Below are positions 3,001-60,100 of a stretch of 64,000 nucleotides of DNA, in pieces. Numbering within the stretch: the stretch's first letter is position 1; each line of letters opens with the position of its first letter. The DNA comes from Daphnia pulex (Eukaryota > Arthropoda > Branchiopoda > Diplostraca > Daphniidae): NCBI RefSeq assembly GCF_021134715.1, contig NC_060022.1:5089001-5153000 (forward strand), in the 5' to 3' direction. The translations under genes and the position numbers were made by a program. The notes under the pieces were generated by a model. It had not been told where the DNA came from. It saw only the letters and a program-made list of their open reading frames with translations, and ran no database searches.

Positions 3001-3563
3001 GTGGTTTGAAGAAGAATGTCGTCTGACCATCTAATGAGTTGAGAAAGTGCTTGGTGCACCAGATTTGTGGCAGATATAAGTGAAGAGCTGTGCTCCCCCG
3101 ATGGAGGTGAGACATTCCCCAATGCTGTCAAAATACTGAAAACATTCTCCAAGACAATAGAGGCAGAACCGGCCACCAATTCCAGAGTATTTTTCACCAC
3201 AACATCTTCGTAGAACTTCAAGGCGTACCTCACCTAAAAGAAAGATGAGGGACTCAACGATAAATTCAAAAGAGTGATGTCTGTGGCAATTCAATTTACC
3301 TGAAGTATGTTTTTGTTGATTACGTTGGTGAAGTGCTGATTGAGGGTGATGCACGAAGGCAGGTCTTCAATGAGACAAAGCAATTCTTTCTTGTGATCTT
3401 TCTCGTTTCCGTTGGTCACACTGGTAGTGATTGGCAGTGCCTTTGGTTTGACGGTCACTTGGTTGGTGTTTGGGGGTGAACGAAGGTTGGAGAGTATATC
3501 GATGATGTCCTCTTTGAAGGACTTGGCCCTCTTGGCCAACCTACCCTTTTTCACCTTATCCAT
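1..3563 (-). CDS. C3G: C3G / RAPGEF1 ortholog, Rap guanine nucleotide exchange factor (C-terminus beyond left edge)
   Basis: Exons read on the minus strand: 3563-3300, 3233-2782, 2701-2523, 2449-2208, 2144-1783, 1712-311 and 242-<1. All have GT/AG borders and reading phases that join, giving 1,047 residues so far. The start ATG at 3563 sits in a good context (agccATGG). Crk-type SH3-binding proline motifs recur: TPPPLPPKKR (~residue 312), PPALPAKRR (~457), APPLPPKKR (~548) and PPVLPPKKG (~615), which is the hallmark of C3G. A RasGEF_N region starts near residue 707 (DALITHAAKLN, YLYQTAFLTTYRTF). The catalytic RasGEF region starts near 849 (LLDAELFLRIEIPEVLVW) and the last exon carries PPCIPYIGLILQDLTFVHIG. 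Known role of the family: it is recruited by Crk adaptors to the membrane and loads GTP on Rap1 in adhesion and receptor signalling. The final ~75-100 residues of the GEF domain are outside the window. Introns are only 63-80 bp. Identification is firm; exon borders were read by eye. Confidence 0.93.
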
Positions 3564-28468: not shown

Positions 28469-35274
<6,806 letters not shown>

Positions 35275-38200
35275 AACAACACCAACAAATCATTCATAAT
35301 CGTAATCAACGTACATATAATAACCCCCTTTCCTTTATTGTGTCTTTTACGCTCTTTCTACACGACACGACACTACATAAACACGGCGATTCAAAAAAAC
35401 AATTATGAGCAAATCGGTATATAATAGTTTTTTGCTCGGGTAACATTTTTCTACTTTTTATTTGAACGGTGGCGGGAAACCAAAAGATTTTTGAAAAATC
35501 GAAAAAATTAGAAAAGGTATACATACATATATACTATTACTACTATACAACAGACGCACAAAACGTTTGTTCCTGTCTTTCTTGTAGACTGTTTTGATAT
35601 GTCTGTCTGTGTGTGTGTGTGGGTGGGTTGTGTGTGTGTTTTGACTATTTGGATAAGGAGGGAAAGCACATAGGAAATATTTTACTCAAACACACACACG
35701 CACATTACCTTTTGTTTTTTTGGTTCTATGTATAGTTTTTCATTTGCGATAAAAAGCACCGGGCAGAAAGATAAAACAAAAAAAAAATCTTACCAGTTGA
35801 ATATTTTCTGGGGGAAGCAGGTTAACTTAACAACGAAACACACCATCACAAACACACACAGACACACGATACACACACATTTAATGAGTAAAAAAGCTAC
35901 ATATTATATCTATGAAAAACAATATCTCTGGTTGGGACTTGCGCATCTTTTCAGCATTTTAAGACTGAGCAAGGGAAAAAAAGAACGACAAATCTTTCTA
36001 AAGGAATTCAGGGGGCTCATGGCTATTTTTCCTTATTTTTTTTCCAATTTAATTTGATGTTTGTAATCATCTCACACATATCTCCTGTCTCTCTTGTTTC
36101 TCTCCCTATATAGTGGCTGTCGAGCGATTTTCATGAAACATTTTTAATATTATGTATTTGCGGTGCGATTATTCAGTTTTATTTGTGTGGTCTTTCCCTA
36201 TATCCCCCCCAATCCAAATCGATAAAATTAAAACAATTAATGATTGAAAAAAAGGTTAAAAGAAGAAAAAAAAAAACGAAAATTCGGCGAGCGATTTGTT
36301 TTTTGTGTGTGGTTTTCGGTTGTGGGGTTTCGTTCACCTGGCGGACGTTGGGTTTGTGACGATTCGGGAGTGTGCATCCATGTTGTGTCGTGTATGTGCT
36401 GCTGGGGTTTTTATATAGGGTCAGTGGAATATGATTCTACCGTTTTATGCAACCAAATAATTTATATATTTTTTCCTCCTTCCATACACCAACCATTTTT
36501 CCAGCAATCCCCCCCAATTGTAGTCTCTCCATCTTCTTCGTATTTTGATCCATACCGACACACACCCTACAAAAAACTATATCAACTGAAATTTTACTCT
36601 TTTAGATCTTCCCATCTCTTTTATTCAAATGATCGCTCTGATGATTTATCCTGCATTTTTTTTTGAAAAAAAAAAAGCTGTCACAATCATGTACGTCTCG
36701 TCATATTCTTTCGAATAATAAACACATATATCTGAGACATGAACGGCAGCTGTTGCTGCTTATTGCGTTCAAAACAAAATTTACTTTTATTCTTTGCGTA
36801 CGACGACATGTGTTTCTCTCGTCGGCAAAATATTTACCAAATAATATAATCCCGTTAGTTGGGTGTTATTTCCTTAGAAGCGATTGAGAGGGAACGGCAT
36901 TGAAGTGGCGACATTGCGAGGGGCTCATGTGTCGCTCGGCACATCGCGCTATCATGTGTTGCCATAAATGGACGGCCATCGGTGACTCATTTTGGCCGTT
37001 TTCCACATGTTGAACAAGTGATAGACGCAGATTTTTTTTGTTTTGTCCATGTTAGATGCGATAGTGTCCCAATATATGGAGCTAGTGTTGGCCTTTCGTG
37101 ATTTATTACTCCTTCTTGAAGAGCTCAAGGGGCTTCCAAGGCCTTGCAAAATATTTGTAGCCAGCAGACTTTTGGCGACAATCATGAAAATGTTTTTTTT
37201 TTTAAAGCAATTTCATCCTCCCAAACAAATAAGTCATAACTTAATTTTGTTACTTATTTATTTAAATGCGATATAATCTTATTTTTGGCTTGGTTTTCTA
37301 GGTTTCACTGGAGTATGCTCGTTGCTCCACTCACCCGAACGATCAAGAAGAAATTTATGCATTCACGCGCACCGTTACATAATTATTATAAACTTTAATG
37401 ATACGTTTATTAATTGTTTTATTTTTATTTTTTTGGTTTATTATTTTTATTTTGAATGAAAACTGGCATCTTTTCATTTTTTTTTCTGTAGCAGACCTCT
37501 GGTGAGTGAATTCAACTTCTTCATAATTCAAATTTTCTCGTAGTTTTTTGCAAACCCGTTTGACATTTGGCATTTTCCATTTTTAAGTAATTGGCAGCCG
37601 TATTTAAATATTACTTTGTAGTTATAACAGTTTATTGTACTAGAATAAAAGTTTAGTCAAATTAAATCCGAAACATTCAAATTAATTTAATGGCTTTTCC
37701 GTATTTTACCGCTAAAAGTCAAGGTCAGATTATCAGCTGATTCCCTTCCCTACTTAAGTCGTCGTCACTTCGTTAGACATCTGGATCGAATTCCACTTCA
37801 TTTACTGTATCTGATCGTCTCTGATCGACTCTTAAAGAGTCACCAGCTTATGTTCAGCATGCTCTATTTTTCCACTCATTAGTTTGGATATGTTGGTGTT
37901 GTTTTTAATGTGGGAAAGGTTTCTGTTAAATGTTGTAATAGATTAAATATAACGCAAATTTAATATGATATTGAATGTTTGTCGAGACTGTCATGAAGCG
38001 TTAACTAGTTATGATCACAGTGCCCACGTTGTCATTCGCGGGTTTTATGAGTTACGACTAGGTGTATGGTATTATTATCGTAATTCGTAATGGTAATTCT
38101 GGTGAGATGCAGTCGTGATGTTCGTTGAGTGATTAGTGCCCATCTTGATGTGGATATGGGTATAGTCACAATATTTTCACTAATTAAATAACATTTCCCT

Positions 38201-38414
38201 CGTAAAATGGGAATACCTATTTAATAACCAGCTAGCCTATAAATTTCCGTACCATTCCGCAAAACCCCAAATACAGGATGACAAATCATGTCAATTAAAA
38301 ATTGACTGTTGCGCTTCTGTTATCTTGAGTAATCAAAAAAGATAAAGGTAAGAATAAGCAGTGGATAAAAAAAAAAAGATTTCAAAACTTCGACCATGGT
38401 CCGTCCTACCATGG
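35275..38414. other. ovo 3' UTR and following intergenic DNA
   Basis: The proximal ~1.4 kb is AT-rich with TG/CA runs (for example ~35608-35640 and ~35860-35880), as expected of a 3' UTR. Beyond ~36.9 kb there are short frames (37043-37276 plus, 37355-37573 minus) with no family I recognise; they may be transposon remnants. Nothing else is supported. Confidence 0.5.
36717..36722 (+). terminator. Candidate polyadenylation signal of ovo
   Basis: An AATAAA about 1.44 kb after the ovo stop codon, in an AT-rich context. It is a plausible end for a long 3' UTR but not proven. Confidence 0.35.
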
Positions 38415-38642
38415 GTATGGAGAGGTGGTTCCCAATGACAGTGTTAAATTCCCCATAAAGGAGGGATCCGGCCATTTTACTAAAAGGCCCCTTTGAATGT
38501 CCATATGCCGCGAGCCTAGATGGCGCTGATTCAAAGGGGCCGCCGTATCATACCCATACAAATGTCGCTAGTATAAAGTAGCGTCCCGTCGAATCCCCTT
38601 ATGGGAAATTTATCACTGTCATTGGGAATCACCTCTCCATAC
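38415..38642. mobile_element. MITE-like element, copy 1
   Basis: Starts GTATGGAGAGGTGGTTCCCA and ends with the inverted form of GTATGGAGAGGTGATTCCCA. The terminal inverted repeats are about 50 bp with few mismatches. Length is 228 bp with no ORF. Flanks ACCATGG and ACCTGGG may be a decayed target duplication. It is clearly related in ends and body to the elements at 38930-39188 and 52435-52693. Confidence 0.7.
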
Positions 38643-38929
38643 ACCTGGGTCCTACTACTACCTACTACAGTAGCCTACTACTACTACCCGACTACCGAGC
38701 GCTCGGCCAGGGATCGGATTGTTCTTTAGTGATTGGCAAAGATGGAATTTCTATCTAGGAAAATGCGAAAAGCGCGCCAGTTATACAAAAATTTTCTCCT
38801 GTTATCGTGACCTCGGAAAAATGAGGGGGGGGTGTTGGTGGTATAGGGGATAAAAGAGTCAAGAGTCTTATTTCCATTTGAGAAACCTAGGTCATGTCAT
38901 GTAAATATGGGTAATTGAGTATGGTCAAG

Positions 38930-39188
38930 GTATGGAGAAATGGTTCCCAGTCTCCATGTTAAAATTTCCGGGTCGTCCGCTCATTTTAATAAAAAGGTCT
39001 TTTTGTATGTCAATAACTCCATATGCCGCAACAGCCTAGATGGCGTGGCATTCGGACTTCGGAGAGACCTCCCTATGCCTCCATACAAAAGTCGTTAGTA
39101 AAAACAAGTAGCTTCCCGTCGCTTTCGAATCCCCTTATTATGGGAAATTTAACATGGTCATTGGCATTTGGCAACCATCTCTCCATAC
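38930..39188. mobile_element. MITE-like element, copy 2 (left arm)
   Basis: Ends GTATGGAGAAATGGTTCCCA and the inverse of GTATGGAGAGATGGTTGCCA; 259 bp, imperfect terminal inverted repeats of ~45 bp, no ORF. The mirrored copy in the right arm is at 52435-52693, so it was present before the arms duplicated. Confidence 0.65.
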
Positions 39189-39194
39189 CCCTGG

Positions 39195-39649
39195 CATAGA
39201 CAAAGACCACTGGTTTATTCTCTCCATAAGAAAATTAACATGGCCAACTGTCGCCAGAATTCTTGCTACCCTTCCTCCGATTTCTCCAACCCCGTATTAC
39301 TTGTCCTGCCCTCTAGTGTACGTTTTCATCTCTACACTCTGCTTACTTCTATTCAATTGCAATGATTCAATTGATTTCTCTGCTTTTGTAATTAGCTAAT
39401 GTCAAAATTTAATACAATTTGACTTCTTAATAAAAATTTTTAAGGCAAAATTACCTAAAACTATTAAACGCCAGCAAAGAATTTTACCAAGACAGAAGGA
39501 AAACAATCTTCGTCTGCAAAACCCTTCGTAGCCTCGGTGCAGTACAGTACTTTGTCCGCTAGAGGCACTACAATCGATACGGGAGCTCGGGGTCAGTAGG
39601 GATAGGGCTAAAAGGATAGCACAGCATCAACCAGTGGTCTTTGTCTATG
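39195..39649. mobile_element. 455-bp inverted-terminal-repeat element present in the left arm only
   Basis: Bounded by CATAGACAAAGACCACTGGT and its exact inverse. The sequence CCCCTGG flanks both sides (39188-39194 and 39650-39656). The right arm has a single uninterrupted CCCCTGG at the mirrored point (52429-52435), a clean empty site. It is non-autonomous: no ORF shows a transposase motif. The family cannot be named from the ends; the duplication can also be read as 5 bp with slightly longer inverted repeats. Confidence 0.88.
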
Positions 39650-39977
39650 CCCCTGGGTGAACGAAGCTATTTTTGTTGATGCATTTGCATAATTCATAAT
39701 AACGAGTTGGCAACCCTGTTGGTATTCTTCTTAATCATATGACTCAGTCTGAATTTGCATTCACTAATCACTATTCAACCGCTGACAGGTAATGGTGGAA
39801 CTCCTTACACTGTTCATGGGGTAAGAACTAGAAACTAATAAATCTTTTTTTCTCTATTCTTTTATTACTTAAATGATACGTGTAGTTGCTGATCATTGTT
39901 GGAATGACGAGTTGTGCGCCATTGCGTCATTAAAATGTAATAACAAATTTAAACCAGTTGAAACAATTGTTTGAAAT

Positions 39978-40055
39978 GGTCAAGTGATGATTCTCCATGG
40001 TTCCTGAAATTAAAAAGGTTGACAACATTGCTTGAACTAGGGCGAACTGATGACC
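39978..40055 (+). ncRNA. Candidate box C/D snoRNA (left arm)
   Basis: Stem GGTCA (39978-39982), C box GTGATGA (39984-39990), an internal CTGA usable as D' (40004-40007), D box CTGA (40047-40050), then TGACC (40051-40055), which pairs perfectly with the 5' stem. Total length 78 nt, in range for the family. The C' box is weak. I could not match either guide stretch (upstream of D' or D) to rRNA from memory, so the target is unknown. A splice-acceptor-like tract follows within ~45 nt, compatible with an intronic snoRNA. Confidence 0.45.
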
Positions 40056-40934
40056 AGTAAGTATGTGTTGGTTTTATTACACTGACACATGTCAGAAAGC
40101 TTAGTTACTACTATTTAGAGTGATATCATTTAAAATATTTTAATCTATACTGATTTGGGTTATTTTTTCTGTTATTTAGTAGATGAAGACTAGTAAGCGG
40201 ATAGTTACATCCTGTATGCAGATCATGAGATGTGCCACACTGTGTTCTGGAAGTCCTGAGAAGTGCCCTCTTTGCTAGTATGCATTGTGTCCTGCAAACA
40301 AAGGTATATCATATGTGTTATTTTGTTATTGATGTATGTTATACCATGCTGATGACACGCTTAGGACACCTAAATATTTACCATGATTGTTGCTAATTCT
40401 GGATGAATGGAGTCTTATCTTGAAAAAAAGGACCCCTATCGGTAGAGAAAACTAATAGTTTAATAATAAGACAGGTGCTGAAAGGTGGTTACAAGTTGCA
40501 TGACGTGTCTTCCGCGGTGTTTTACTAGATCGCCGAACTTGGTGTTTGCGTATATGCCGGTCGGAGGCCTTCGTGATTTGGTGTGGACTGGTTCGTAGTT
40601 GGACTACTTGCCGTGTCTTTGTAAAGGTATTGCATGTTTTATACTGATCCATTCGAGCCTCAGAGTCACCGGTTTGACGTATGCCTAGGATTCCGGTGCT
40701 AGAGGATCTCGTAAAGTAAAGGGCTAACCACATATGCTCGATCACATAACTCGTCTCAGTGGTTGATCACCTCGGTTAGATACATATGGTCGCTGTGATT
40801 GGAGTTCACTAATCCATTTATGTTCTTAAGGGTGGACTGGTGTCATTCTGCTGTCCGATGTTCTCTCGCGATACGTAAATCGATATATCTACCATGCCTG
40901 ATGTGAGTTTCTTTAGTGGCATTGATATTATGAC

Positions 40935-41010
40935 TGCAAGTGATGATAATCTCAAGAGCCAATTTATCTGTATGAATTTAAATGAAATTGAATGATAGGA
41001 CTGAATCAAA
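40935..41010 (+). ncRNA. Second candidate box C/D snoRNA (left arm)
   Basis: C box GTGATGA (40940-40946) and D box CTGA (41001-41004). The ten bases directly before the D box, AATGATAGGA, are complementary to TCCTATCATT, a conserved stretch of eukaryotic 28S rRNA as I recall it. A second stretch, AGAGCCAAT (~40955-40963), complements another 28S segment (ATTGGCTCT) but is not next to a clear D' box. The terminal stem is poor, so confidence is low. Confidence 0.33.
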
Positions 41011-42639
41011 TTTTTTTTACTGTCCACAAGCACTATGAAGATGGAATCTAATAAATTTGTCTATGTCCAGGTATGAGCAGTATTGCGTTTCGTGGACGTC
41101 AATGGTAAGGATGTTTTAATTTTTTCTGATTGCCATTTAAAAAAATTGAAGTGATGAGAAAGCTTATAAAGCAAATTCAGAATAGTACTATGCTGAATCA
41201 AACTGCCTTCCTTTTGATCGCTATCATTTCGCATTTCCATCCTACGGTTTGTGGAGCAGTAATGCAATATACTTTTCCTTGACTATTTAGATGTGGAAGG
41301 CGTTTTCTTCTGTTGGCTTCATTTGAATTTATCATTCCCTGCACTTCTGTCAAACATTAGGTAACACGAAATCCGGACTTCATCATTTTGGTTATATTAA
41401 ATATGATGAAAACGAGTTACCGTTTGAATTTTATGAAACGTAATTTAGACTGTATGTTAACTGACCACTGACAAGTTAAAACTGTCGTTTGTCTATTTTT
41501 ACTTCCTTAGTAACACTGCTTTAACGGTCTTTTATAGTTGCTGATGAATACCGACCGTTGATAGCTGCTTGGTACTGGCGATCAACTTTCGCAGTTGTAA
41601 TTTGCTTCACATCTATCATCTTTTCATTTACTCAATGTTGCTAATCTTTGATCCGTTTAGTCCAAATTTTTATGAGGCTGTGTCCATTTATAAATGTTAT
41701 TTTTTGTAACATGTTGGTTTAGTTGCGTTGAAATTTAAACGAAAGTGAATATATGACATGCTGTATACAAATTTTTTAAAATATGAAGTGCTTTATAATG
41801 TGAAAATTCTAATATTTTTCTGTTAGTATGTTTAAATGTTTAATCTAGAATTTTTGTGTAATTTCCGAAAATTTTTTAAGCAACAACGAATTAAACAAAT
41901 CACAGCACGAATATGAAAGAAAACAGAGTCATTGACCATCTTTGTTCTTTGATTTCAGATCAGAGTTCGTGAATTTCACGGCTCGATCCAAAGGAGTTAA
42001 TTGGGTTGTTTTTGGAGATAACAAATACGGTGAAGAATTCAGTCCAGAAAATGCTGCATTGGAATCGACATTTGGGAGGGCCATTAATGTAAAATTTCTA
42101 TGCTTGCATCCACGAGACAATTTGAATAAGCAAGCAAAGTCTTCACATTCGCTGATCCTGCTGATTACAACCGCATTCAACCCTATCGAGACCCTATTCT
42201 ACTCCTCGGACTTACCGTACTTAACTTAATATATAAGAAAGACCTAAAAACATTTTTCTGTTTTTTGTTTAGGAATTACGTGACAGGTTGTACTATTGCA
42301 TTTCATGTGTGTTTTCGGTGTGTAATCCTGGAATTTTGCTGATTTTATTACTAGCTCCGGTCAACATTTGTTCTAGTTGCAGATGCATATTTCCATAACA
42401 CTTTCCCGCCCAGAAGCCGTTCTTTAGTGGACAGTCAGAGGATCGAAAATCTGGTAAGACGCAAAAATCTTATTTTTGTTTAAGTTTCCTTTAAATTTCC
42501 TACTCGTTTATACAGCTCTATATGTAACGTGCCTAATATCGGGAGTCGGCCACCGATGTCAATCTACAACGCAGTTTCTTAATTGGAGCTGGTGTTTCCT
42601 GCGATGTGTTGTTGCGGATTTGTTACACTATCATGTTCA

Positions 42640-44800
42640 AAAAGGTAACTGTGTTCATTAATTTCTCTTTTAGAAAGCTTCAGATTAAGTAACGGAAGAC
42701 CAGAGAATAGATCCCTTTGTTTCAGTATTGTAACTTTCAGTGAAATCTGTGGATGTGTGGTTTTACATTATTTGATTTTCATCCTTTTAATTTTTTTTCA
42801 TTAATTGAAAAACATGTTTACTATAGATTTTTCTGTAAAATTTCTAATATCAAAATAATTTTGAGGAATTTTGGTGATTCAACTTTACAGTCTTTACTCT
42901 TTAGACTCTTTACTCCTGTCCTGTCATCTTGCTTGCTAATCTTATGCAAATTTTCTGGAATATGGCGCTAGGTAAAATTTTGTCCGCCAGGTGGTGGAGT
43001 GCCTGTTCGTGAGTGACGAAGCCGCCATTTGCTTTTGAGACAGCGTACGGGAATATGTTTCTGCTAAATGACGGTGTTCTTCGCTTTTACATTTTAAAAA
43101 ATGTTTCCACGCCATTCGACCAAGTTGAAACGAAAGTGAACAATTCTAAAGCATGTAAGTGAATTGTGAGAGTTTTTACTTTTCGAAAAGTTCATTTTCT
43201 AATCTATTTTAATTTATTTTGTATAAGCATGTCGAAGATCTTGCCATTATCCACGTGATCGCTGCCATGAAGGTGTGTCTTTGAGAGGGTCTCTACTATA
43301 TTGCAAGACAAAAATGTGAAGAAAACAGGAAATCTGAAATGGTTGTACTTAAAGGTAAATCAAGTAGGTTGTCACTTGTTTTCGACATCAAGAACAAAAT
43401 ACTATCTTATTTCCGTGCTTCCAAATAAGACAGCTTTTGTGGAAAGTTTGGTCAGTTTCTAATCAATCAGTACAGATATTCCCCTTCAACTTAAAAAATT
43501 CAAAGAAAATTTCACAAAGTGATCTTTGGTCATCTTCAATGACTTCTTTTTCTCTTGTAATCTAAATTTTAAGTATATCATTGCCTCAACTACAACATGT
43601 TACAACCACTTATGATACAGTTGCAAGCTAAAGTGAGCACTCTTCCAAAATAGTGTTCTTATAGTTTTGAGGGACTGTTAAGTTTAACTTTATCCCTTTC
43701 ATTATATTACATCACACAAGACATCTCCTTCTCAATATTGATTTAATATTTTCCATTGTTTTAACGGCATCTGAGTATGAGCTGCAGCCAGTTGGTGGAA
43801 GTTGTGGATATGTTAGCTGTTGCAATCAGTTTGTGAGGCATCTCATGCAGAAACCAATAATGATAAGGTAACTATGTTCATTTATTTCTCTTTAAGAAAG
43901 CTTTAGATTAAGTAATGGGATACCAGAGAGTAGATTTCGTTGCTTCAGTGTTGTAACTTTCAGTGAAGTCTGTTAACGTGTGGTTTTACATTAATTGATT
44001 TTCATCCTTTGCATTTTTTTTTCACAAATTGGAAGTTTAAAGAAAATTTTCACAAAGTGATATTCGGTCATCTTCATGATATCTTTTTCTCTAGTAATCT
44101 AAATTTGAAGTACATCATTGCCTTAACTACAGTACATTGCAACCATTTATTGATCTTGCAACTATCTGCAAGATAAAGTCAATTATCATTTGCATATAGT
44201 TTTTGTGTTTTGCTTTGCAATTTTTTTATTCATTTTACTAATCTACTTTAATTTTGTGACAAGCATGTCGGAGATCTTGCCTTTCTCAACGTGCGGTGCC
44301 ATGTCAACAAGATGTCTCTTTGATGAGGTCTCTACTAGATTGCAAAACAAAACTGTGAAGAAAACAGGAAATCTGAAATGGTAATGATTTACTTGTAAGA
44401 TAGATCAAGTGGGTTAGATTAGCATTTTGCTTAAACTTGGTCTACGTTTGTGTGCTACCTATGCGTGATCTTTGTTTAGAGTTTACCTCAGTTAAACATT
44501 TGGTTTATTAGATGAAATTTGGCTAATTCCTGCTTCTAAATAAGACAGCTTTTATGAAAAGAACATCAGCTTATGAAGAGATGTAATTTTTTTTTATCAA
44601 ACAGAACAGAAATTCCCTTCATTCTCAAAAACTTGAAATGAAAACATTATCTTTGGTCATCTTTTTGATTTATTTTTCAATAGTTTAATCTAAATTTGAA
44701 GAAAATCTTTGCCTTAATTACTAAATGTTTGAAACATTTATTTTACGATTGTAAGCTAAAGTTAAACATCACTTGCATTTTTTCTTTTGCTTTGTAAATT
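42640..44800 (+). repeat. Diverged internal duplications within the left arm
   Basis: Several segments recur in order. 'aaggtaactgtgttcatt...gtggttttacatta' is at ~42650-42770 and ~43864-43995. 'aagcatgtcgaagatcttgcc...ggaaatctgaaatgg' is at ~43227-43345 and ~44262-44382. 'cacaaagtgatctttggtcatctt...gcaagctaaagt' is at ~43512-43635, ~44050-44180 and, more diverged, ~44640-44765. The whole set is mirrored in the right arm, so it predates the palindrome. Confidence 0.75.
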
Positions 44801-45302
44801 TTATTTTATGGTATCTTTTTTCACATTTCAAAATGTTATTGGTTCATTAAAGTTCTTTTGCTTTGTAGGATTCCATGGTCCGTTTGATGTTTGAGCTGTT
44901 TGTGGTGTTGCTGTTTGGTGTGAAGTGGGTTTGCAGTCATTTTCAACTTGAGAGATGCGCTGAAATGGAGCTTCGTCAGACTTGCAGTTCAACATCATAC
45001 TTCAATGTGTTATTTCCCTATGTTTGTGTCCGTGCAGTGTTGAGCTGTTGGGCAAAACGGTCAATGTTGTCTGATGGCTGTCAGGCATATTTATCTGCTG
45101 CATTTTGTCAATATGTCGTCTCTTGCTACCTGTACGTTGAGGTAGTGCTTGATGAACAGTATCATTTAATTTTTCAGTCGTTATTGCAGCCCAAGCTGGT
45201 GAAAGATCTTTTTGTATCAAGTAAATCTGACTGTTTTTTTTGTGTTGTTGGAGTGTTACGAAAGTTGCGTCATTATTGTGTTGAATTGTCATTGTGACTG
45301 CA

Positions 45303-45963
45303 GTTCACCGTTTATAATTTAGGAAGGGAAAAAAACAGAATTATGGGGAATTTATGTCAAACAATAATAAACTTGCTTTCGGGATTGGGAAAGGAATGTG
45401 GAGGTTGTCAGGTGGCAGGGTGGTGACTTGAATTTTCATATCTCAAAATATAATGAGGTATGTTAAAATGTGCTGATGCGAAAAATGTGGATAAAATCTT
45501 TATAAATCCACAACAACTTCTATAATGTTAAAACCTATTACCTAATTACCCTAAAATCATACAACTTCTAAAATCCCATTACACAGTAATTTTATAATCT
45601 CCTAACTCACTATCCTAAAACAAAATACCCAACTAAACCATATCCCTACAACATCCATATTCCTTCAACCTATTACCTAATATACCTATAAACACAACTG
45701 TTGTATGATTTTTGGTCAATTAAATAATATGTTATAACATTATAAAAATTTTTGTAGATCTATAAACTTAAATCCTCATTAATCGTTACATAACATTTTA
45801 ACAAACTCCATTATATTTTGAACTATGAAAATTCAAGTTAACAACCTGCCAACTAACAACCACCACATTTTGTTCCCAATCTCGTAAACTTGTTTATTAT
45901 TTGCCATAAATTTTTCATAATTCTTTTTTTTCCCCTTTCTAACTTATGAACGGCAAACAGCAG
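45303..45963. repeat. Nested foldback element at the inner end of the left arm
   Basis: About 165 bp starting tgactgcagttcaccgttta at the outer side recur inverted at the inner side, ending acttatgaacggcaaacagc; they share the ttcatagttcaaaatataatgg-type and gaattatg blocks. The middle is AT-rich. Mismatches between these two ends are many, so this foldback is older than the arm duplication. Confidence 0.7.
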
Positions 45964-45969
45964 TTACAA

Positions 45970-46111
45970 AGACATGTCTGCATAATAAATAAACAACAAT
46001 ACACCAAGTAAAACCAATTAATAATTATTTAATAATATATCAATAAATAACCTAATCATAGAAAAAAGAAATTTAATTATTTTATATTATATTAATTTTA
46101 TGTTACATTGT
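45970..46111. other. AT-rich spacer at the palindrome centre
   Basis: The 142-bp unique sequence between the two arms, rich in taataatt and aataaat strings. No feature is recognised. Its presence shows the palindrome is not a perfect hairpin. Confidence 0.8.
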
Positions 46112-46119
46112 TATTGTAA

Positions 46120-46790
46120 CCGCTGTTTGCCGTTCATAAGTTAGAAAGGGAAAAAAAAAGAATTATGAAAAATTTATGGCAAATAATAAACAAGTTTACG
46201 AGATTGGGAACAAAATGTGGTGGTTGTTAGTTGGCAGGTTGTTAACTTGAATTTTCATAGTTCAAAATATAATGGAGTTTGTTAAAATGTTATGTAACGA
46301 TTAATGAGGATTTAAGTTTATAGATCTACAAAAATTTTTATAATGTTATAACATATTATTTAATTGACCAAAAATCATACAACAGTTGTGTTTATAGGTA
46401 TATTAGGTAATAGGTTGAAGGAATATGGATGTTGTAGGGATATGATTTAGTTGGGTATGGTTAGTTGGTTTAGTTAGGATAGTGAGTTAGGAGATTATAA
46501 AATTACTGTGTAATAGGATTTTAGAAGTTGTATGATTTTAGGGTAATTAGGTAATAGGTTTTAACATTATAGAAGTTGTTGTGGATTTATAAAGATTTTA
46601 TCCACATTTTTCGCATCAGCACATTTTAACATACCTCATTATATTTTGAGATATGAAAATTCAAGTCACCACCCTGCCACCTGACAACCTCCACATTCCT
46701 TTCCCAATCCCGAAAGCAAGTTTATTATTGTTTGACATAAATTCCCCATAATTCTGTTTTTTTCCCTTCCTAAATTATAAACGGTGAACT
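46120..46790. repeat. Nested foldback element at the inner end of the right arm
   Basis: Mirror copy of 45303-45963. The core differs between arms: the right copy has a ggtatggttagttggtttagttagg stretch near 46455-46480 where the left has a shorter, altered sequence near 45615-45635. Confidence 0.7.
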
Positions 46791-49700
46791 GCAGTCACAA
46801 TGACAATTCAACACAATAATGACGCAACTTTCGTAACACTCCAACAACACAAAAAAAAAACAGTCAGATTTACTTGATGCAAAAAGATCTTTCACCAGCT
46901 TGGGCTGCAATAACGACTGAAAAATTAAATGATACTGTTCATGAAGCACTACCTCAACGTACAGGTAGCAAGAGACGACATATTGACAAAATGCAGCAGA
47001 TAAATATGCCTGACAGCCATCAGACAACATTGATCGTTTTGCCCAACACAACACTGCACGGACACAAACATAGGGAAATAACACATTGAAGTATGATGTT
47101 GAACTGCAAGTCTGACGAAGCTCCATTTCAGCGCATCTCTCAAATGGAAAATGACTGCAAACCCACTTCACACCAAACAGCAACACCATAAACAGCTCAA
47201 ACATCAAACTGACCATAGAATCCTACAAAGCAAAAGAACGTTAATGAACCAATAACATTTTGAAATGTGAAAAAAGATAACAGAAAATAAAATTTACAAA
47301 GCAAAAGAAAAAATGCAAGTGATGTTCAACTTTAGCTTACAATCGTAAAATAAATGTTTCAAACACTAAGTAATTAAGGCAAAGATTTTCTTCAAAATTA
47401 GATTAAACTAGAGAAAAATAAATCAAAAAGATGACCAAAGATAATGATTTCATTTCAAGTTTTTGAGAAAGAAGGGAATTTCTGTTCTGTTTGATAAAAC
47501 ACATCTCTTCATAAGCTGATGTTCTTTTCATAAAAGCTGTCTTATTTAGAAGCAGGAATTAGCCAAATTTCATCTAATAAACCAAATGTTTAACTGAGGT
47601 AAACTCTAAACAAAGATCACGCATAGGTAGCACACAAACGTAGACCAAGTTTAAGCAAAATGCTAATCTAACCCACTTGATCTATCTTACAAGTAAATCA
47701 TTACCATTTCAGATTTCCTGTTTTCTTCACAGTTTTGTTTTGCAATCTAGTAGAGACCTCATCAAAGAGACATCTTGTTGACATGGCACCGCACGTTGAG
47801 AAAGGCAAGATCTCCGACATGCTTGTCACAAAATTAAAGTAGATTAGTAAAATGAATAAAAAAATTGCAAAGCAAAACACAAAAACTATATGCAAATGAT
47901 AATTGACTTTATCTTGCAGATAGTTGCAAGATCAATAAATGGTTGCAATGTACTGTAGTTAAGGCAATGATGTACTTCAAATTTAGATTACTAGAGAAAA
48001 AGATATCATGAAGATGACCGAATATCACTTTGTGAAAATTTTCTTTAAACTTCCAATTTGTGAAAAAAAAATGCAAAGGATGAAAATCAATTAATGTAAA
48101 ACCACACGTTAACAGACTTCACTGAAAGTTACAACACTGAAGCAACGAAATCTACTCTCTGGTATCCCATTACTTAATCTAAAGCTTTCTTAAAGAGAAA
48201 TAAATGAACATAGTTACCTTATCATTATTGGTTTCTGCATGAGATGCCTCACAAACTGATTGCAACAGCTAACATATCCACAACTTCCACCAACTGGCTG
48301 CAGCTCATACTCAGATGCCGTTAAAACAATGGAAAATATTAAATCAATATTGAGAAGGAGATGTCTTGTGTGATGTAATATAATGAAAGGGATAAAGTTA
48401 AACTTAACAGTCCCTCAAAACTATAAGAACACTATTTTGGAAGAGTGCTCACTTTAGCTTGCAACTGTATCATAAGTGGTTGTAACATGTTGTAGTTGAG
48501 GCAATGATATACTTAAAATTTAGATTACAAGAGAAAAAGAAGTCATTGAAGATGACCAAAGATCACTTTGTGAAATTTTCTTTGAATTTTTTAAGTTGAA
48601 GGGGAATATCTGTACTGATTGATTAGAAACTGACCAAACTTTCCACAAAAGCTGTCTTATTTGGAAGCACGGAAATAAGATAGTATTTTGTTCTTGATGT
48701 CGAAAACAAGTGACAACCTACTTGATTTACCTTTAAGTACAACCATTTCAGATTTCCTGTTTTCTTCACATTTTTGTCTTGCAATATAGTAGAGACCCTC
48801 TCAAAGACACACCTTCATGGCAGCGATCACGTGGATAATGGCAAGATCTTCGACATGCTTATACAAAATAAATTAAAATAGATTAGAAAATGAACTTTTC
48901 GAAAAGTAAAAACTCTCACAATTCACTTACATGCTTTAGAATTGTTCACTTTCGTTTCAACTTGGTCGAATGGCGTGGAAACATTTTTTAAAATGTAAAA
49001 GCGAAGAACACCGTCATTTAGCAGAAACATATTCCCGTACGCTGTCTCAAAAGCAAATGGCGGCTTCGTCACTCACGAACAGGCACTCCACCACCTGGCG
49101 GACAAAATTTTACCTAGCGCCATATTCCAGAAAATTTGCATAAGATTAGCAAGCAAGATGACAGGACAGGAGTAAAGAGTCTAAAGAGTAAAGACTGTAA
49201 AGTTGAATCACCAAAATCCCTCAAAATTATTTTGATATTAGAAATTTTACAGAAAAATCTATAGTAAACATGTTTTTCAATTAATGAAAAAAAATTAAAA
49301 GGATGAAAATCAAATAATGTAAAACCACACATCCACAGATTTCACTGAAAGTTACAATACTGAAACAAAGGGATCTATTCTCTGGTCTTCCGTTACTTAA
49401 TCTGAAGCTTTCTAAAAGAGAAATTAATGAACACAGTTACCTTTTTGAACATGATAGTGTAACAAATCCGCAACAACACATCGCAGGAAACACCAGCTCC
49501 AATTAAGAAACTGCGTTGTAGATTGACATCGGTGGCCGACTCCCGATATTAGGCACGTTACATATAGAGCTGTATAAACGAGTAGGAAATTTAAAGGAAA
49601 CTTAAACAAAAATAAGATTTTTGCGTCTTACCAGATTTTCGATCCTCTGACTGTCCACTAAAGAACGGCTTCTGGGCGGGAAAGTGTTATGGAAATATGC

Positions 49701-51074
49701 ATCTGCAACTAGAACAAATGTTGACCGGAGCTAGTAATAAAATCAGCAAAATTCCAGGATTACACACCGAAAACACACATGAAATGCAATAGTACAACCT
49801 GTCACGTAATTCCTAAACAAAAAACAGAAAAATGTTTTTAGGTCTTTCTTATATATTAAGTTAAGTACGGTAAGTCCGAGGAGTAGAATAGGGTCTCGAT
49901 AGGGTTGAATGCGGTTGTAATCAGCAGGATCAGCGAATGTGAAGACTTTGCTTGCTTATTCAAATTGTCTCGTGGATGCAAGCATAGAAATTTTACATTA
50001 ATGGCCCTCCCAAATGTCGATTCCAATGCAGCATTTTCTGGACTGAATTCTTCACCGTATTTGTTATCTCCAAAAACAACCCAATTAACTCCTTTGGATC
50101 GAGCCGTGAAATTCACGAACTCTGATCTGAAATCAAAGAACAAAGATGGTCAATGACTCTGTTTTCTTTCATATTCGTGCTGTGATTTGTTTAATTCGTT
50201 GTTGCTTAAAAAATTTTCGGAAATTACACAAAAATTCTAGATTAAACATTTAAACATACTAACAGAAAAATATTAGAATTTTCACATTATAAAGCACTTC
50301 ATATTTTAAAAAATTTGTATACAGCATGTCATATATTCACTTTCGTTTAAATTTCAACGCAACTAAACCAACATGTTACAAAAAATAACATTTATAAATG
50401 GACACAGCCTCATAAAAATTTGGACTAAACGGATCAAAGATTAGCAACATTGAGTAAATGAAAAGATGATAGATGTGAAGCAAATTACAACTGCGAAAGT
50501 TGATCGCCAGTACCAAGCAGCTATCAACGGTCGGTATTCATCAGCAACTATAAAAGACCGTTAAAGCAGTGTTACTAAGGAAGTAAAAATAGACAAACGA
50601 CAGTTTTAACTTGTCAGTGGTCAGTTAACATACAGTCTAAATTACGTTTCATAAAATTCAAACGGTAACTCGTTTTCATCATATTTAATATAACCAAAAT
50701 GATGAAGTCCGGATTTCGTGTTACCTAATGTTTGACAGAAGTGCAGGGAATGATAAATTCAAATGAAGCCAACAGAAGAAAACGCCTTCCACATCTAAAT
50801 AGTCAAGGAAAAGTATATTGCATTACTGCTCCACAAACCGTAGGATGGAAATGCGAAATGATAGCGATCAAAAGGAAGGCAGTTTGATTCAGCATAGTAC
50901 TATTCTGAATTTGCTTTATAAGCTTTCTCATCACTTCAATTTTTTTAAATGGCAATCAGAAAAAATTAAAACATCCTTACCATTGACGTCCACGAAACGC
51001 AATACTGCTCATACCTGGACATAGACAAATTTATTAGATTCCATCTTCATAGTGCTTGTGGACAGTAAAAAAAA

Positions 51075-51150
51075 TTTGATTCAGTCCTATCATTCAATTT
51101 CATTTAAATTCATACAGATAAATTGGCTCTTGAGATTATCATCACTTGCA
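51075..51150 (-). ncRNA. Second candidate box C/D snoRNA (right-arm copy)
   Basis: Mirror copy of 40935-41010, with the same boxes and 28S-complementary stretch. Confidence 0.3.
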
Positions 51151-52029
51151 GTCATAATATCAATGCCACTAAAGAAACTCACATCAGGCATGGTAGATAT
51201 ATCGATTTACGTATCGCGAGAGAACATCGGACAGCAGAATGACACCAGTCCACCCTTAAGAACATAAATGGATTAGTGAACTCCAATCACAGCGACCATA
51301 TGTATCTAACCGAGGTGATCAACCACTGAGACGAGTTATGTGATCGAGCATATGTGGTTAGCCCTTTACTTTACGAGATCCTCTAGCACCGGAATACTAG
51401 GCATACGTCAAACCGGTGACTCTGAGGCTCGAATGGATCAGTATAAAACATGCAATACCTTTACAAAGACACGGCAAGTAGTCCAACTACGAACCAGTCC
51501 ACACCAAATCACGAAGGCCTCCGACCGGCATATACGCAAACACCAAGTTCGGCGATCTAGTAAAACACCGCGGAAGACACGTCATGCAACTTGTAACCAC
51601 CTTTCAGCACCTGTCTTATTATTAAACTATTAGTTTTCTCTACCGATAGGGGTCCTTTTTTTCAAGATAAGACTCCATTCATCCAGAATTAGCAACAATC
51701 ATGGTAAATATTTAGGTGTCCTAAGCGTGTCATCAGCATGGTATAACATACATCAATAACAAAATAACACATATGATATACCTTTGTTTGCAGGACACAA
51801 TGCATACTAGCAAAGAGGGCACTTCTCAGGACTTCCAGAACACAGTGTGGCACATCTCATGATCTGCATACAGGATGTAACTATCCGCTTACTAGTCTTC
51901 ATCTACTAAATAACAGAAAAAATAACCCAAATCAGTATAGATTAAAATATTTTAAATGATATCACTCTAAATAGTAGTAACTAAGCTTTCTGACATGTGT
52001 CAGTGTAATAAAACCAACACATACTTACT

Positions 52030-52107
52030 GGTCATCAGTTCGCCCTAGTTCAAGCAATGTTGTCAACCTTTTTAATTTCAGGAACCATGGAGAATCATCA
52101 CTTGACC
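52030..52107 (-). ncRNA. Candidate box C/D snoRNA (right-arm copy)
   Basis: Mirror copy of the candidate at 39978-40055, with the same stem and C and D boxes. Confidence 0.42.
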
Positions 52108-52434
52108 ATTTCAAACAATTGTTTCAACTGGTTTAAATTTGTTATTACATTTTAATGACGCAATGGCGCACAACTCGTCATTCCAACAATGATCAGCAAC
52201 TACACGTATCATTTAAGTAATAAAAGAATAGAGAAAAAAAGATTTATTAGTTTCTAGTTCTTACCCCATGAACAGTGTAAGGAGTTCCACCATTACCTGT
52301 CAGCGGTTGAATAGTGATTAGTGAATGCAAATTCAGACTGAGTCATATGATTAAGAAGAATACCAACAGGGTTGCCAACTCGTTATTATGAATTATGCAA
52401 ATGCATCAACAAAAATAGCTTCGTTCACCCAGGG

Positions 52435-52693
52435 GTATGGAGAGATGGTTGCCAAATGCCAATGACCATGTTAAATTTCCCATAATAAGGGGATTCGAAA
52501 GCGACGGGAAGCTACTTGTTTTTACTAACGACTTTTGTATGGAGGCATAGGGAGGTCTCTCCGAAGTCCGAATGCCACGCCATCTAGGCTGTTGCGGCAT
52601 ATGGAGTTATTGACATACAAAAAGACCTTTTTATTAAAATGAGCGGACGACCCGGAAATTTTAACATGGAGACTGGGAACCATTTCTCCATAC
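52435..52693. mobile_element. MITE-like element, copy 3 (right arm)
   Basis: Mirror of the element at 38930-39188, with the same terminal repeats. The two copies are orthologous by duplication of the arm, not by separate insertion. Confidence 0.65.
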
Positions 52694-53119
52694 CTTGACC
52701 ATACCCAATTACCCATATTTACATGACATGACCTAGGTTTCTCAAATGGAAATAAGACTCTTGACTATTTTATCCCCTATACCAGTATACCACCACCCCC
52801 CCCCCCCCCCTCATTTTTCCGAGGTCACGATAACAGGAGAAGCGCGCGGCACAATCAGGCAATCAGCCAAAGCGGCAAAAGTCCGACAGTGAACTGTGAA
52901 TACAAAATGGGTTCACTTTCTCTTACAAAATGGTCCATATTTTCTTAACGAGATCAACTTTGAGAGTATCGAAGAACAGTAGCCTACAAAAATGTGATTT
53001 TCCTTAAACGAGCGAACGGACAGAATATTTCTATAAACGTGCAGTCGTGCATTCGTCAGCGTGAAAACGACGTGAAATACGGGATGTGAAAAAAAAATTC
53101 TTTGTACTGAATAGAACAA

Positions 53120-53191: not shown

Positions 53192-55697
53192 TCAACATGC
53201 ACTTGATTCAATCGGTTGAGGTGAGCTTGCCACAAGTGCATCTGTGACAGCAGTAGGAGGCGACAAAAGCTGAAGAGTTGGTGATGATGGAGGAATCATT
53301 GCTTCAATTTGCGGAGGTTCAGGCGACCCAGGTGGAGGTGGGGGAGGTGGTAAGAGATCAAAAACGGGATCGAAATCGTCTCCAACAATCTTCTCCTTTT
53401 TGGGCTTTTTACATTTCTTTTTCGGAGACGTTTCGATAAGATGAACTGGTTGAACCACGGGCGGTGGTGGTGAGCGTCCATGTTCGTCCTCGTCTTCCGA
53501 AGAAGTTCCGTAACCGGGACGAACACTGTCGGCAAACACGACAGCTTTTTTCTGGTTTCCGCTTTTCTCATCAAGTAAAGATATCCGTGGCATCACCAGT
53601 ATTCCTTTTCCAGCTTCCTTGAGCTCCACTGGAGGTGGTTTAGAGCGCTTCCCTTTTTTGACTACTTTAGTTTTATCATTCTTAGCTTCGAATGTTGGCG
53701 ATTCACTACTGCACAGGAAAAAAATAATAAGAAGAATAATTCAGGGTAGTTTTAGAAATTTGCGAATTAATTCTTACCCAGACAGCAAGATGTTGGAAGT
53801 TTCAAATTGCATCAATTTCTCTTCTAATGCCTCCAGAACAGTTTCGTCTGCCACCTCCAAATTACTGGCCACAGCTTCCAGATTTTTGAGCTCCTTGTCC
53901 CAATCCTTTTTTATTTCTTGATCAGGTGCAAGATCCTGTGACTGGGTGTCAGTTTTATTAATCTCGTTCTCCTCACGGTGAACATCGTTTGTTTTATCAT
54001 CTTCTGTCTTCGGAGGAATGGTTCGCACCAGTGGCTGATACAGAACACTTTGAAGGTGTGGGGGAACGTAAGGAGCGGCAGGAAGAGCTCTGTTGCGACA
54101 ATGTAAAATCCATGGCCCGAGTGGTGCAGCCTTTGGTCCAAAACCTCTTGCTCTAAATATGAATAAGTAAAAGTGAAATAAAAAAAACGTTAGGAAACTT
54201 TAGCTTAAAATTATTTTGTTACCGCTTAACGGGACTTGTTGACATGCCGCATGAATCGAAACTCCACGAGTACTGATCAGTGACGGATTGAGGTGAAAGC
54301 ACTGATGTTGTAGTTGGTATCTCAGATTCTACTTTGATTCCTAACTCCAGTTCCAAACGTTCATCTAAGGAAATTCTTTTTGCGTCTGACATCAATCCGT
54401 CAATTGCATCAATATCTCCAAGTCTGCTGCATTCCTTTCCACCTTCCCAATCGTTTTCCTTGCTATTTTCATCGGGAGTGTTTGGCTCTTTTCTTGGGAT
54501 AGGCGAAGTACCACTTGTACTTTCGCGAGAAGGTCGATAGCGTGAAGATCGCCACTGTTCGTCCCAGTCGGGGCTTGGAGCAGATCGTTTTCTAATTCCG
54601 TTGTCTTTAATTTCACTTGACATTACTCCATCTTCAAAATTCCGATCCACTGCTTTTGGAGATTGGCTTGGCTCGAACTTAATTTCATTCCTTGTTTCGA
54701 TTTTGTCATTCGTATTTTCCAGACTTAAGTTAGGCGAATAGCTTTTTCGAACTTGCACATATTTACTCTCCTTCAACACTTCCTTTTCGTCTCCAATATT
54801 TTGAGAGACAGCAACGGGCAATTCAATTGGTTCCTGCTTTATAACACGTTTTTCATTGATGTTTTCCAGGCTTGACATGAATGCAGAGTATTCTTCTTGA
54901 ATAGCCTTAGTTTCGGATTTCGACGGTTCCAAAATTATTTCCTTTTTCACTTTCGATTGGGAGGAAATGAGACTTGTGAGAAAGTCATCATCTTCAAAGA
55001 ACGGCAGTTCTACTTTATTGATTTTCACTTTTGAAACAACCGTTGTGTTGAGTAGGCTAGGAGGTGGTTTAGGAAGGAACTCGTCATAGTCGGTATTATC
55101 TCGATAACTGGACTCATCTTCTGAATCAGTTTCCCAATGAGTAGAAAAAGACATGTTTTCAGAATCTTCTAAAGACTTGCCCACAAACATCTTCTTGCTT
55201 ACATACCACTTCCTGTATCTTCCAGCAAATTCCCGATTCTGGTATAGAGGAGTGGTACTATTCATTATGGAATTCATAATTCTTTTGGTATCTTCATCAG
55301 CTGCATCAAAAATTTCTTTTCTAGATTGAAACACTCCTTTAGCATAGTGAGGGTTCTCACAATAAGAAATTTGGGGCTCTGTTTTAGTATACTGGATTAT
55401 GTGAGCAGGAAAACTGATTTCTTCACAATCTTCTCCTTCAACAACATAAGTGTACTTAAGAATTCCATGGCGGTTTGGTCGTTTCTGTAGGTTATTGTCC
55501 GTATTTAAATTCTCCTTTGTTTTGTTCAATTGCTGGGCAAATGCAAGCAATCTTCTCTTTGCTTGCTCTGGTCCTAAGACCACCTTTGAAGGAGATGAGC
55601 CTTCATTTGATGCAGAATCACAATTGGGTAGTTGTTGAACATTTTCTTTCCTCTTTTTTGAATTGAGATTCAAGGGAATTACCATATCCATTTCCAT
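53192..55697 (-). CDS. Uncharacterised, largely disordered nuclear-type protein, 788 residues
   Basis: Exons read on the minus strand: 55697-54223, 54152-53778 and 53708-53192. GT/AG borders and phases close to exactly 789 codons. I do not recognise the family. Visible features: a basic N-terminus (NSKKRKEN), a well-ordered stretch RPNRHGILKYTY...KEIFDAADEDTKRIMNS...GRYRKWYVSKK (~residues 70-180), and long Ser/Glu/Lys-rich segments with several IKxE-like sites that could be SUMO sites. A Pro/aromatic segment GPWILHCRNRALPAAPYVPP follows the first splice. Next comes VVFADSVRPGYGTSSEDED, then an acidic and proline-rich tail with a run of seven prolines. A basic KKKCKKPKKEK patch suggests nuclear location. 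A 5' UTR intron just before the ATG (ttcag|agcaATG) is possible. The coding call is strong; function is unknown. Confidence 0.82.
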
Positions 55698-57113: not shown

Positions 57114-60100
57114 TTATTCATCCAGTTTGAGCTTATTAGGGCTCTTTTTATGCCCTTTACTGTCATCATCAGCCGCGTGACGGCTCCTCCGTTCTCGTTC
57201 TACCGGCTCGCCTCCACCACGAGTCCTGGCCGGCGTCAAGTCTAGTCCATGAGAGCTCCGTTCCGATTTGGAGCTCCTTTCCTTGGAGGGACCTTCACTA
57301 CGATCACTGCGATCGCGCTCAGCTCGCTCGGCTCTTTCGGCTCTTTCAGCACGATCAGTACGGTCGGCACGATCGCGACGTGAAGACGATGAGCCACGGT
57401 GAGTATCAGATGAAGTGCCACCTCCTCCCGAAGCGGAAGCAGTTGTTTTGGTGGAAGTCGAGCCCGGATCGTTAGCCATAGTTGTCGTCAGTCCATTCAT
57501 GAAACCTTGGGCCCCCAAATTGGAAAAAGCTGTGGATAATGGGATGCCTGCTGGCAAAGAAAACGGGTTGAGGCCCCCTAGTCCCAGATGGCCGTACAGC
57601 ATACTCGGATTGGGGAAAAGGAAAGGAAGTGAGGCTGCAGCAGCTGCAGCGGCGTTAGCATTGGCATTGGCGCTAGCACTAGACGACGATGTAGCTGGTT
57701 TCTTGCCTTTATCTTCGCGACGAGATGCCGATGAAGATTTGGTGGTTGTATTCGTGGTTGATGCACTAGGTGCGCTGCTAGTTGGCATGTCGGGCATGAA
57801 TCCAGCCAGGTTGGAAAAGAGATGTTGCATACTGCCCATGTTGCCCATGGCCCCCATGTTACCCAAGGCTCCAAAGCTACCAAGTCCTCCCAAGGATCCT
57901 AGACCGGGAAATCCACCAAACATACTTAAAGCGTTTTTAGGATCCAAACCGGCCAGCGGATTATTCTTCGGATCGAGTGATGCACCAAACAGGGCGGCCG
58001 TCTTGGGGTCTAAGGCACCAAACATCTTTGGATCAAAAGCAGCCAACAAAGGATTCTTCGGGTCGGCTCCTAGATGATGAAGAGATGAAAGGAAATTGGG
58101 ATTGAGGCCGGCAAAGTTGGCTAAATTCAGTCCCGATGTTGAAGCAGAAGCACCCGACGACGTGCTGGCCATGGCTGAAGATGTCGCACCACCACCTCCA
58201 CTGTTTCCGGTTCCCCCTCTTCCACTGGAGCCTGCGGCTGCAGTGGCATTAGTGTTGCTTACACGGCTTGTACCGCGCTTCCGATCACTGGCGCTTGGGG
58301 TAGAATTGGACGTCGAGGTGGAAGCAAGGTTGATCACTGGAGCGTTTGCGGCCAAGGGGACGGATGGAGATCCGGTAACGCGGCGCTGAAGATCACCTGG
58401 TAAGTTGCCTTTTTCTTTTACCAGGTCGGACCATTTAGGATCCACGTCAAACATGGGATTGGCAAGCAACCATTGAGCCAAATTGCGCAAGTGAGGGGCT
58501 TTATTACCCGTAATTTTCTTTCCAGTCAGTCGGTTGATGACGCTGACATTCTCGTCTCCGCTTAAACGGTTCCAGTCAAGCAGAGCTGGGTCGATACGCG
58601 GCTTACGACGTCTTTTCGAGTCCAATAGGTCAGCGTCAGGGCTGGCCGGTCTTTCAGGTGTAATACCTTGTTGGTCGGCTAACCACTTGGACACCTTGAG
58701 CTCGTGAGGTGGTGTGTGGCTATAGGCGTCAAGTTTCTGCAACAAAAAGTCAGGCAATTTGTTGATTCCGGCAGTAGCAGCCAAGTCACTAACCGTGGCA
58801 GCTGCTGCACTATTCGAATTATTCCTTAGTGGTTCAATTGAGATCCTAGGAGCTTCGGTACCACTGGCTCGTCCGGGAGTAGATGGACTGGCAGAAACAC
58901 CAGGAAGACGACTAAGACCAGCCAGCAAAGCTTCGGCTTGCATTTTGCCCATCTTTTCATCCTTGTCTTTGTCCTTACTGCACGGCATGATTGTTATTCC
59001 GGAAGAACGAGGAAAACTCAAACCAAGAGGATCGGCCGAGGTAGATGCTTTTGGTGTGCGTGGCGAAGCGAACAGAGCTCCAATTCCGCCTTGTCCTTTA
59101 GCGGCCGACAAACCTTTAACAATATCATCCAACTTGCGACGCTTCTGGTTCTTTTCACCACCCGGTGGGGGCATCATTTCGTCAGATTTACGTTTTCGGT
59201 CTTCTCGTTCTTCTCTGTCCCCATTCACTTCCGAAGCCCGTGATTTGCTTAATCCTCCTGAAAGATCCATCGGAGCGGATGAGTTTTCAGATCCTTTGAC
59301 AGTCACGGACACTGAGATGGAAGGCGGCAATCCCAAAGCAGCCATCGAATTGGCAATTACTTGAGCCGCTGCTGCGTTGTTTTGCGCCTGGGCGGCTTGC
59401 ATTACTTGGGCCTGTGCCTGAGCGGCCTGTGCCAGCATCAGTTCAAGGGTATGGGCAGAAAGTGCTTGTGCTTGTGCTTGGGCTTGAGCTTGTGCTTGTG
59501 CTTGAGCCTGGGCTTGTGATTGGGCCGATCGCGAGGAAGAAGACGATCCATGCTGATGAGCTGGAGGTGGTAGCGAAGAGCGTTGCTTGGAACGAAGAGA
59601 GACAGAAGTTTCTGATGGAGTGCTTCGGTCATCTTCTCGTTCATCCATCAGGATAGGCTTTCCTGTTAACTGTTGAGTCAAACTTCGCTGCATCGAGTGA
59701 TTTAGGCTGAGAAGAGCACGAAGTTTAGCTCGCTCCTGTTCTACGTCCATATTGACATTTCGTTGGCCACGACCTCTTCCACGACCACGACCTCTGCCGC
59801 GTCCTCCACGTCGCGAAGATGGTAACATGCCAAGACCGAAATCACCAGATCTGTCCATACCAGAGTTCATCATCATAATGTCCGATGCATCAGATAGCGA
59901 CATGGCCGAAACCGACGGTGCTGGGGTTGGTGGGTCACGCACAGCAACTGTGGCGACCACAGGTGGTGGAGGAGGCGTACTAGCCTGCTCTGGCGTCAGA
60001 CTCTCCATTTCTACGACGCCATTGGCGAACGCGCTGAAGTCACGACCGACGGGCCATTCGCTTTTCTCGACGGCATGAACGATGTGCTGCAACCGAGCTT

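Follow-up and report, generated by a model that had tools for sequence, protein, structure and literature searches.

The window analysed here is the 64,000-nucleotide stretch C6:5089001-5153000 of the Daphnia pulex genome, C6 being a contig of 7,255,302 bp. A large palindrome occupies the interval between a C2H2 zinc-finger ORF and a CHD6-9-type ORF (Table 1). The ORF 54222-55697, which stands beside the palindrome, shares 99% identity with a protein of Daphnia pulicaria and 59% with one of D. carinata; a protein search with the CHD-like ORF gave 718 proteins, of which the 120 listed included none from Daphnia. Elsewhere in the window, a 1730 aa ORF on the reverse strand (11782-16974) combines Helitron-like N-terminal and PIF1 helicase domains and is possibly an intact Helitron, a 177-bp unit forms a tandem array of ~3 copies (18064-18606), and a snoU6-53 C/D snoRNA match exceeding the gathering score adjoins the CHD6-9 ORF (63282-63361, reverse strand).

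Table 1. Features of the window and related palindromes in the genome. Positions are those of the window unless a contig is named; pairs are given as convergent/divergent/direct.
Feature	Position	Strand	Remarks
C2H2 zinc-finger ORF	34413-35039		neighbour of palindrome
Left-flank piece	38105..38183	+	in line with C6:4914159-4914239, 88%; right-flank counterpart not found
Left arm	38794..45974	+	7181 bp; inverted-repeat search, BLAST, global alignment
Outer arm, putative former left flank	38794..42637	+	mirror now ~49448-52841; very little arm divergence; outside core common to most relatives
MITE-like insertion, left arm only	39195..39649	+	455 bp, inverted ends, 7-bp duplication on either side
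Segment with snoRNA-like sequences	39670..41108	+	paralogue C6:4914348-4915796, 84.8%
C/D snoRNA-like	40344..40407	+	SNORD58, E 0.15
H/ACA snoRNA-like	40651..40787	+	ceN100 E 6.4e-7, SNORA3 E 0.0011; mirror 51298-51434 (-)
Possible C/D snoRNA	40941..41008	+	ceN53, E 1; weak alone
Core common to six other palindromes	42638..45974	+	left copy; mirror ~46109-49447
Module B	43078..43371	+	best 40 of 131 candidates; pairs 10/0/1
Cluster of 17 arm differences	44585..44950	+	inner part: left arm close to C6:5262k/4255k, right arm close to C6:4583k
Module D	44795..45180	+	best 40 of 201 candidates; pairs 12/0/0; reading frame not conserved
Repeat H, copy 1 of alternating four at centre	45272..45565	+	
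Repeat H, copy 2, inverted	45700..45974	-	predicted long hairpin with copy 1
Central spacer	45975..46108	.	134 bp, A+T rich; alignment, direct reading
Right arm, mirror of left arm	46109..52841	-	6733 bp; inverted-repeat search, BLAST, global alignment
Repeat H, copy 3	46109..46383	+	
Repeat H, copy 4	46527..46820	-	
Relic of family outer end	52857..52917	+	short; just outside right junction
CHD6-9-type ORF	57114-62348		neighbour of palindrome
Core palindrome	C6:461135-469509		
Core palindrome	C6:4252174-4261832		
Core palindrome	C6:4581097-4589279		
Core palindrome	C1:3370881-3378666		
Core palindrome	C6:5260369-5267068		more diverged or broken
Core palindrome	C1:3970266-3974614		more diverged or broken
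Palindrome with related modules	C2:4046523-4064265		arms 8.3 kb, 99.4%
Palindrome with related modules	C10:15892917-15899358		arms 2.0 kb, 97.7%
Palindrome with related modules	C4:2010051-2023771		arms 6.0 kb, 99.5%

The arms and spacer were recovered in three ways, by inverted-repeat search, BLAST and global alignment of the arms. The global alignment gives 6673 identities over 6710 aligned positions (99.45%), bearing out the giant near-identical palindrome described in an earlier sequence-only reading of this DNA, and the mirrored coordinates sum to 92085 across the main block, as had been stated for most of the arms. The two-arm layout of that reading also stands, but with a spacer of 134 bp instead of 142 bp. 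A 4946-bp mirror block (39644-44589) carries three arm differences, at 40689, 42867 and 44585, two of them within 39644-44584, and a block this exact excludes chance as the origin of the palindrome. Here as in the relatives, the element consists for the most part of long inverted repeats, which is an arrangement of the foldback type. Sub-modules recur as direct copies inside each arm, ~77-86% alike by BLAST.

The arms differ in length mostly by one 462-bp gap (39188-39649), and the left arm alone contains a 455-bp insert with the inverted ends, target duplication and many similar copies of a MITE. Read directly, its 7-bp duplication CCCCTGG stands at 39188-39194 and 39650-39656, and a genome search with the first 449 bp of the insert as query gave 43 matches. 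Because 11 other copies among these are 97-99% alike, the insert looks recently active and appears to have entered after the mirror had formed. A second MITE-like repeat with inverted ends (38409-38660), by eye kin to the outer-arm repeat at ~38930-39194, served as a control in the orientation analysis described below.

Aligned position by position, the arms diverge unevenly, with 7 of the 37 substitutions in 38794-44584 and 30 in 44585-45974. Divergence between the arms is thus 0.13% in the outer part and 2.2% in the inner part, where 17 of the 30 substitutions crowd into 44585-44950. Likewise, the arms differ at 1 position in 42100-44349 compared to 25 in 44600-45849.

The genome surveyed for relatives comprises 133,188,837 bp in 13 contigs. 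Outside the window palindrome, the inner 3.3 kb of each arm is found again in six palindromes of contigs C6 and C1. These hold window 42638-45974 in whole or in large part, with main blocks 80-96% alike, and sit in differing flanks. Arms of this kind had been thought rare; these six core palindromes, together with the 29 convergent pair loci found among the scored matches, show that they do not stand alone. The window core aligns with C6:4253587-4260419 over 6979 columns, spacer included, and since relatives align with it through the spacer, the palindrome itself has been copied between loci. The copies are paralogues of one genome: the arms of C6:4580k are nearly identical to each other, as are those of C6:4251k, and the two copies are ~10% apart. 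There is no single, clean outer end common to all core copies, C6:460k, C6:4580k and C6:5258k having one outer type and C6:4251k and C1:337k another. No target-site duplication was seen by eye at the outer junctions 38794/52841, in agreement with the sequence-only reading, nor at the outer ends of the seven core palindromes, which may be grown ends.

Besides the palindromes with related modules on C2, C10 and C4, a further one (C6:365769-370200) was seen in part. In the C2 palindrome, repetitive tyrosine-rich ORFs with PKYYTEAP-type units are mirrored in both arms (~4362-6305 of the extracted C2 stretch). The 2.4-kb spacer of the C10 palindrome (C10:15892001-15900300) holds ORFs, of which the one tested has no Pfam match; an ORF there is presumably 'MRPS35-like', resembling a mitochondrial ribosomal protein. 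The majority of strong C4 outer-arm matches lie on C6, the contig of the window.

Apparently, the outer part of the right arm of the window palindrome has recently been overwritten by the left arm together with ~3.8 kb of left flank. The copying would have run from left to right, because the C6:4914k paralogue continues across the left boundary only. This is the one long paralogue of the 5' part of the outer arm, which has four short partial matches in addition. The relic of a family outer end at the right junction (52857-52917) has 22 other short matches in the genome, of 35-61 bp each, and a 40-bp match of 87-90% to the nearest palindromes. Relic-type ends also flank some other pairs (C6:4252705/4261262, and C1:5221040/5238241 around a D pair). 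At C6:5260k, 130 kb away, the main blocks of the arms are 84-93% alike and the outer arms are unlike, the left one being of the window type from 42219 inward and the right one of the other type. The earlier proposal of an inverted duplication of a genomic segment suits the outer 3.8 kb (38794-42638), which look like a recent inverted copy; the inner 3.3 kb are a repeat present in six further palindromes. The C4 palindrome also looks grown into its flank like the window copy: its arms run ~2.35 kb beyond the common outer end, and C6:1745016-1747927 matches its left side across the palindrome edge. With the D. pulex mutation rate given in PMC12926508 (2.30-4.53e-9 per site per generation), the 2 substitutions in ~4940 bp (39644-44584) place the last identity of the window arms roughly 45,000-88,000 generations ago, if no later conversion occurred.

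Within the core, the two arms resemble different relatives. Compared with C6:4580k over 44600-45849, the right arm has 3 differences in 1258 positions and the left arm 26 in 1250. Arm blocks matching different relatives are the pattern expected of exchange between palindromes, and the earlier suggestion of a palindrome maintained by gene conversion survives in this form, as exchange of gene-conversion type seen as a pattern. The same blocks bear on an assembly artefact, in which two haplotypes or repeat copies would have been joined in mirror, a wrong joining of haplotypes having been raised already by the sequence-only reading. Near-identical arms are indeed difficult to assemble; however, an insertion in one arm only, unlike flanks, clustered arm differences that match different relatives and the recurrence of this layout at many sites of a 13-contig assembly make this origin highly improbable.

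The orientation of neighbouring copies was compared by classing module matches less than 20 kb apart as convergent, divergent or direct. In the large searches the best 40 candidates of each module were scored; the pair counts are therefore minimum values, with a possible bias towards pairs that are alike. Modules B and D pair as given in Table 1, and module E, from the C10 palindrome, forms 7 convergent, 0 divergent and 1 direct pairs among the best 40 of 509 candidates. For the C4 outer arm (1023 candidates), the counts are 8/0/5 on all 42 of 95 matches that exceed 1000 bits and 8/0/1 on 33 selected matches; both the E and the C4 counts include the query's own palindrome. Two of the five direct C4 pairs are pieces of split copies, and two consist of sequence beyond the common outer end, that is, flank repeats only. 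Jointly, the four modules give 29 convergent mirror-pair loci and 0 divergent ones among the scored matches, which are not 29 independent events, as the core palindromes share ancestry. Sixteen of the 40 scored matches of module D are unpaired. The control MITE yields 0/2/1 among the best 40 of 74 matches, the others being mostly the same copies found via the inverted ends, and the inserted repeat (39195-39649), also used as a control, yields 0/1/2 on 43 matches. The H repeat gives 0/5/0 on 30 short matches of 93; in the C4 palindrome its direction is contrary to that of E, and orientation is therefore a property of the module and not of every repeat. Among the 42 C4-arm matches, 31 begin at query 3395-3412, within 18 bases, which suggests a fixed outer end of C4-type arms; three begin ~375 bp further out.

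At the 29 pair loci the modules converge, and it is this orientation that turns read-through from an outer end into a hairpin. It would fit a hairpin-RNA locus, putatively transcribed from the outer end through the spacer to give long dsRNA and siRNAs by which related repeats are silenced. Pairing between the two H copies at the arm end is mostly preserved; of 209 predicted pairs, 13 have changes on both sides in one sequence or more. However, the covariation term is unfavourable (+3.78 kcal/mol) and conversion between H copies would yield the same double changes, for which reasons the hairpin was rejected as proof of RNA function; the orientation, too, may descend from few ancestors. We regard such a locus as improbable.

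A protein-coding core was likewise rejected, as the 142-codon ORF 44869-45294 is broken in several relatives where the DNA is still alike. Among 10 ORFs tested against Pfam, none scored above the cut-off (one weak match, E 0.034) and no transposase was recognised. One 20-base pattern had no match in viral contigs.

The outer arm contains a segment with snoRNA-like sequences, which are so named at 40651-40787 and 40344-40407 because they fall below the Rfam gathering score: the best window match scores 48.3 bits and the best in a relative 60, compared to 80. In six relatives picked by DNA similarity, ceN100 is found in 6/6, SNORD58 in 3/6 (best E 0.003) and ceN53 in 2/6. One arm difference lies within the ceN100 match (40689/51396). 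The presence of these sequences in the window copy could point to a non-coding RNA gene family spread by segmental duplication, its mirror pairs kept, like the palindromes of Y chromosomes, by gene conversion between the arms, and its arms being genes selected for sequence or dosage. The convergent module pairs would agree with this, as would splice-like sequences, the acceptor-like TTTTGCTTTGTAG preceding module D and the exon/donor-like GGAGAAAATATTACGTGAGT at the C4 outer end. On the other hand, an Rfam search of 9 sources (core copies and relatives) gave no match at E<=1, which led us to reject the core as a cluster of known snoRNAs, and none of 20 sources had a match at the gathering score. 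Conservation across the core copies falls in broad blocks of hundreds of bases each, and the candidate counts of module E and of the C4 arm fit a repeat better. Such a gene family thus seems rather unlikely.

Taken together, these comparisons make it probable that the palindrome belongs to a high-copy family of non-coding, foldback-like palindromic repeats in the D. pulex complex and has recently grown by left-to-right arm copying. A repair event would have begun in the core near 44585/47500 with the left arm as template, and copying would have extended outward across the core and a further ~3.8 kb of left flank. The copy would then have been connected to right-flank sequence at 52841, taking the place of the outer portion of an older right arm of unlike sequence, and the flank with its snoRNA-like sequences would have been doubled as a passenger. 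Mechanistically, fold-back priming or break-induced copying from one inverted arm to the other seems the likeliest route, and the H copies that alternate at the centre, four in number, are plausible fold-back primers. A break in or near the core followed by outward copying from the other arm would account for the two-level divergence, the loss of the right arm and the dissimilarity of the outer flanks. In its behaviour the family resembles a selfish, or at least a mobile, repeat. Any benefit to the animal is hypothetical, and so is transposition, given that no transposase was recognised and no target duplication seen by eye.

More tentatively, giant palindromes may form a genome-wide population that spreads both by the copying of entire palindromes to new loci and by growth, any one of them being able to mirror its own flank and thereby to capture and double host sequence (here snoRNA-like genes); selection for hairpin RNA may lie behind the convergent orientation. 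Giant palindromes are chiefly associated with sex chromosomes and cancer amplicons; in the present genome they occur as a dispersed family, in which one relative (C6:5260k) resembles the state before growth and two copies (window, C4) look grown. The system allows the study of palindrome growth, arm homogenisation and capture of flanking genes in a genus with mutation-accumulation lines. Judged by titles, no report of giant palindromes in Daphnia was recognised in the open-licence literature, where we also found none on a snoRNA host gene with palindrome and gene conversion, or on arm-to-arm gene conversion in invertebrates.

Several known systems share part of this picture. Ampliconic Y/W palindromes have multi-kb near-identical arms, for which PMC3403216 gives gene conversion as the cause in known cases; in contrast, the Daphnia copies are dispersed on several contigs and their tested arm ORFs have no protein domain above the cut-off. 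In yeast and cancer, fold-back priming at a break near a short inverted repeat is described as leading to a large palindromic duplication (PMC7999016), whereas growth in Daphnia would be read from evolutionary traces and the core was already palindromic before it. The Drosophila hpRNA loci Nmy and Tmy are described in PMC10292708 as inverted repeats of high complementarity with kinship to other loci, while the Daphnia palindrome is known here from DNA alone. Foldback-like transposons, which also include FB and Tetris, appear to be the nearest known kind found. As reported for Galileo (PMC3573991) and Tm1 (PMC3169594), the bulk of such an element is long inverted repeats that contain internal repeats, many copies lack protein genes, and recombination and chimeric copies occur. 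The Galileo inverted repeats span 18 to 1250 bp in that account (PMC3573991). Compared to these elements, no transposase (10 ORFs) or target duplication (7 core palindromes, by eye) was found in Daphnia, and the arms of ~2-8 kb are far longer than the reported ones and in two copies reach into the host flank.
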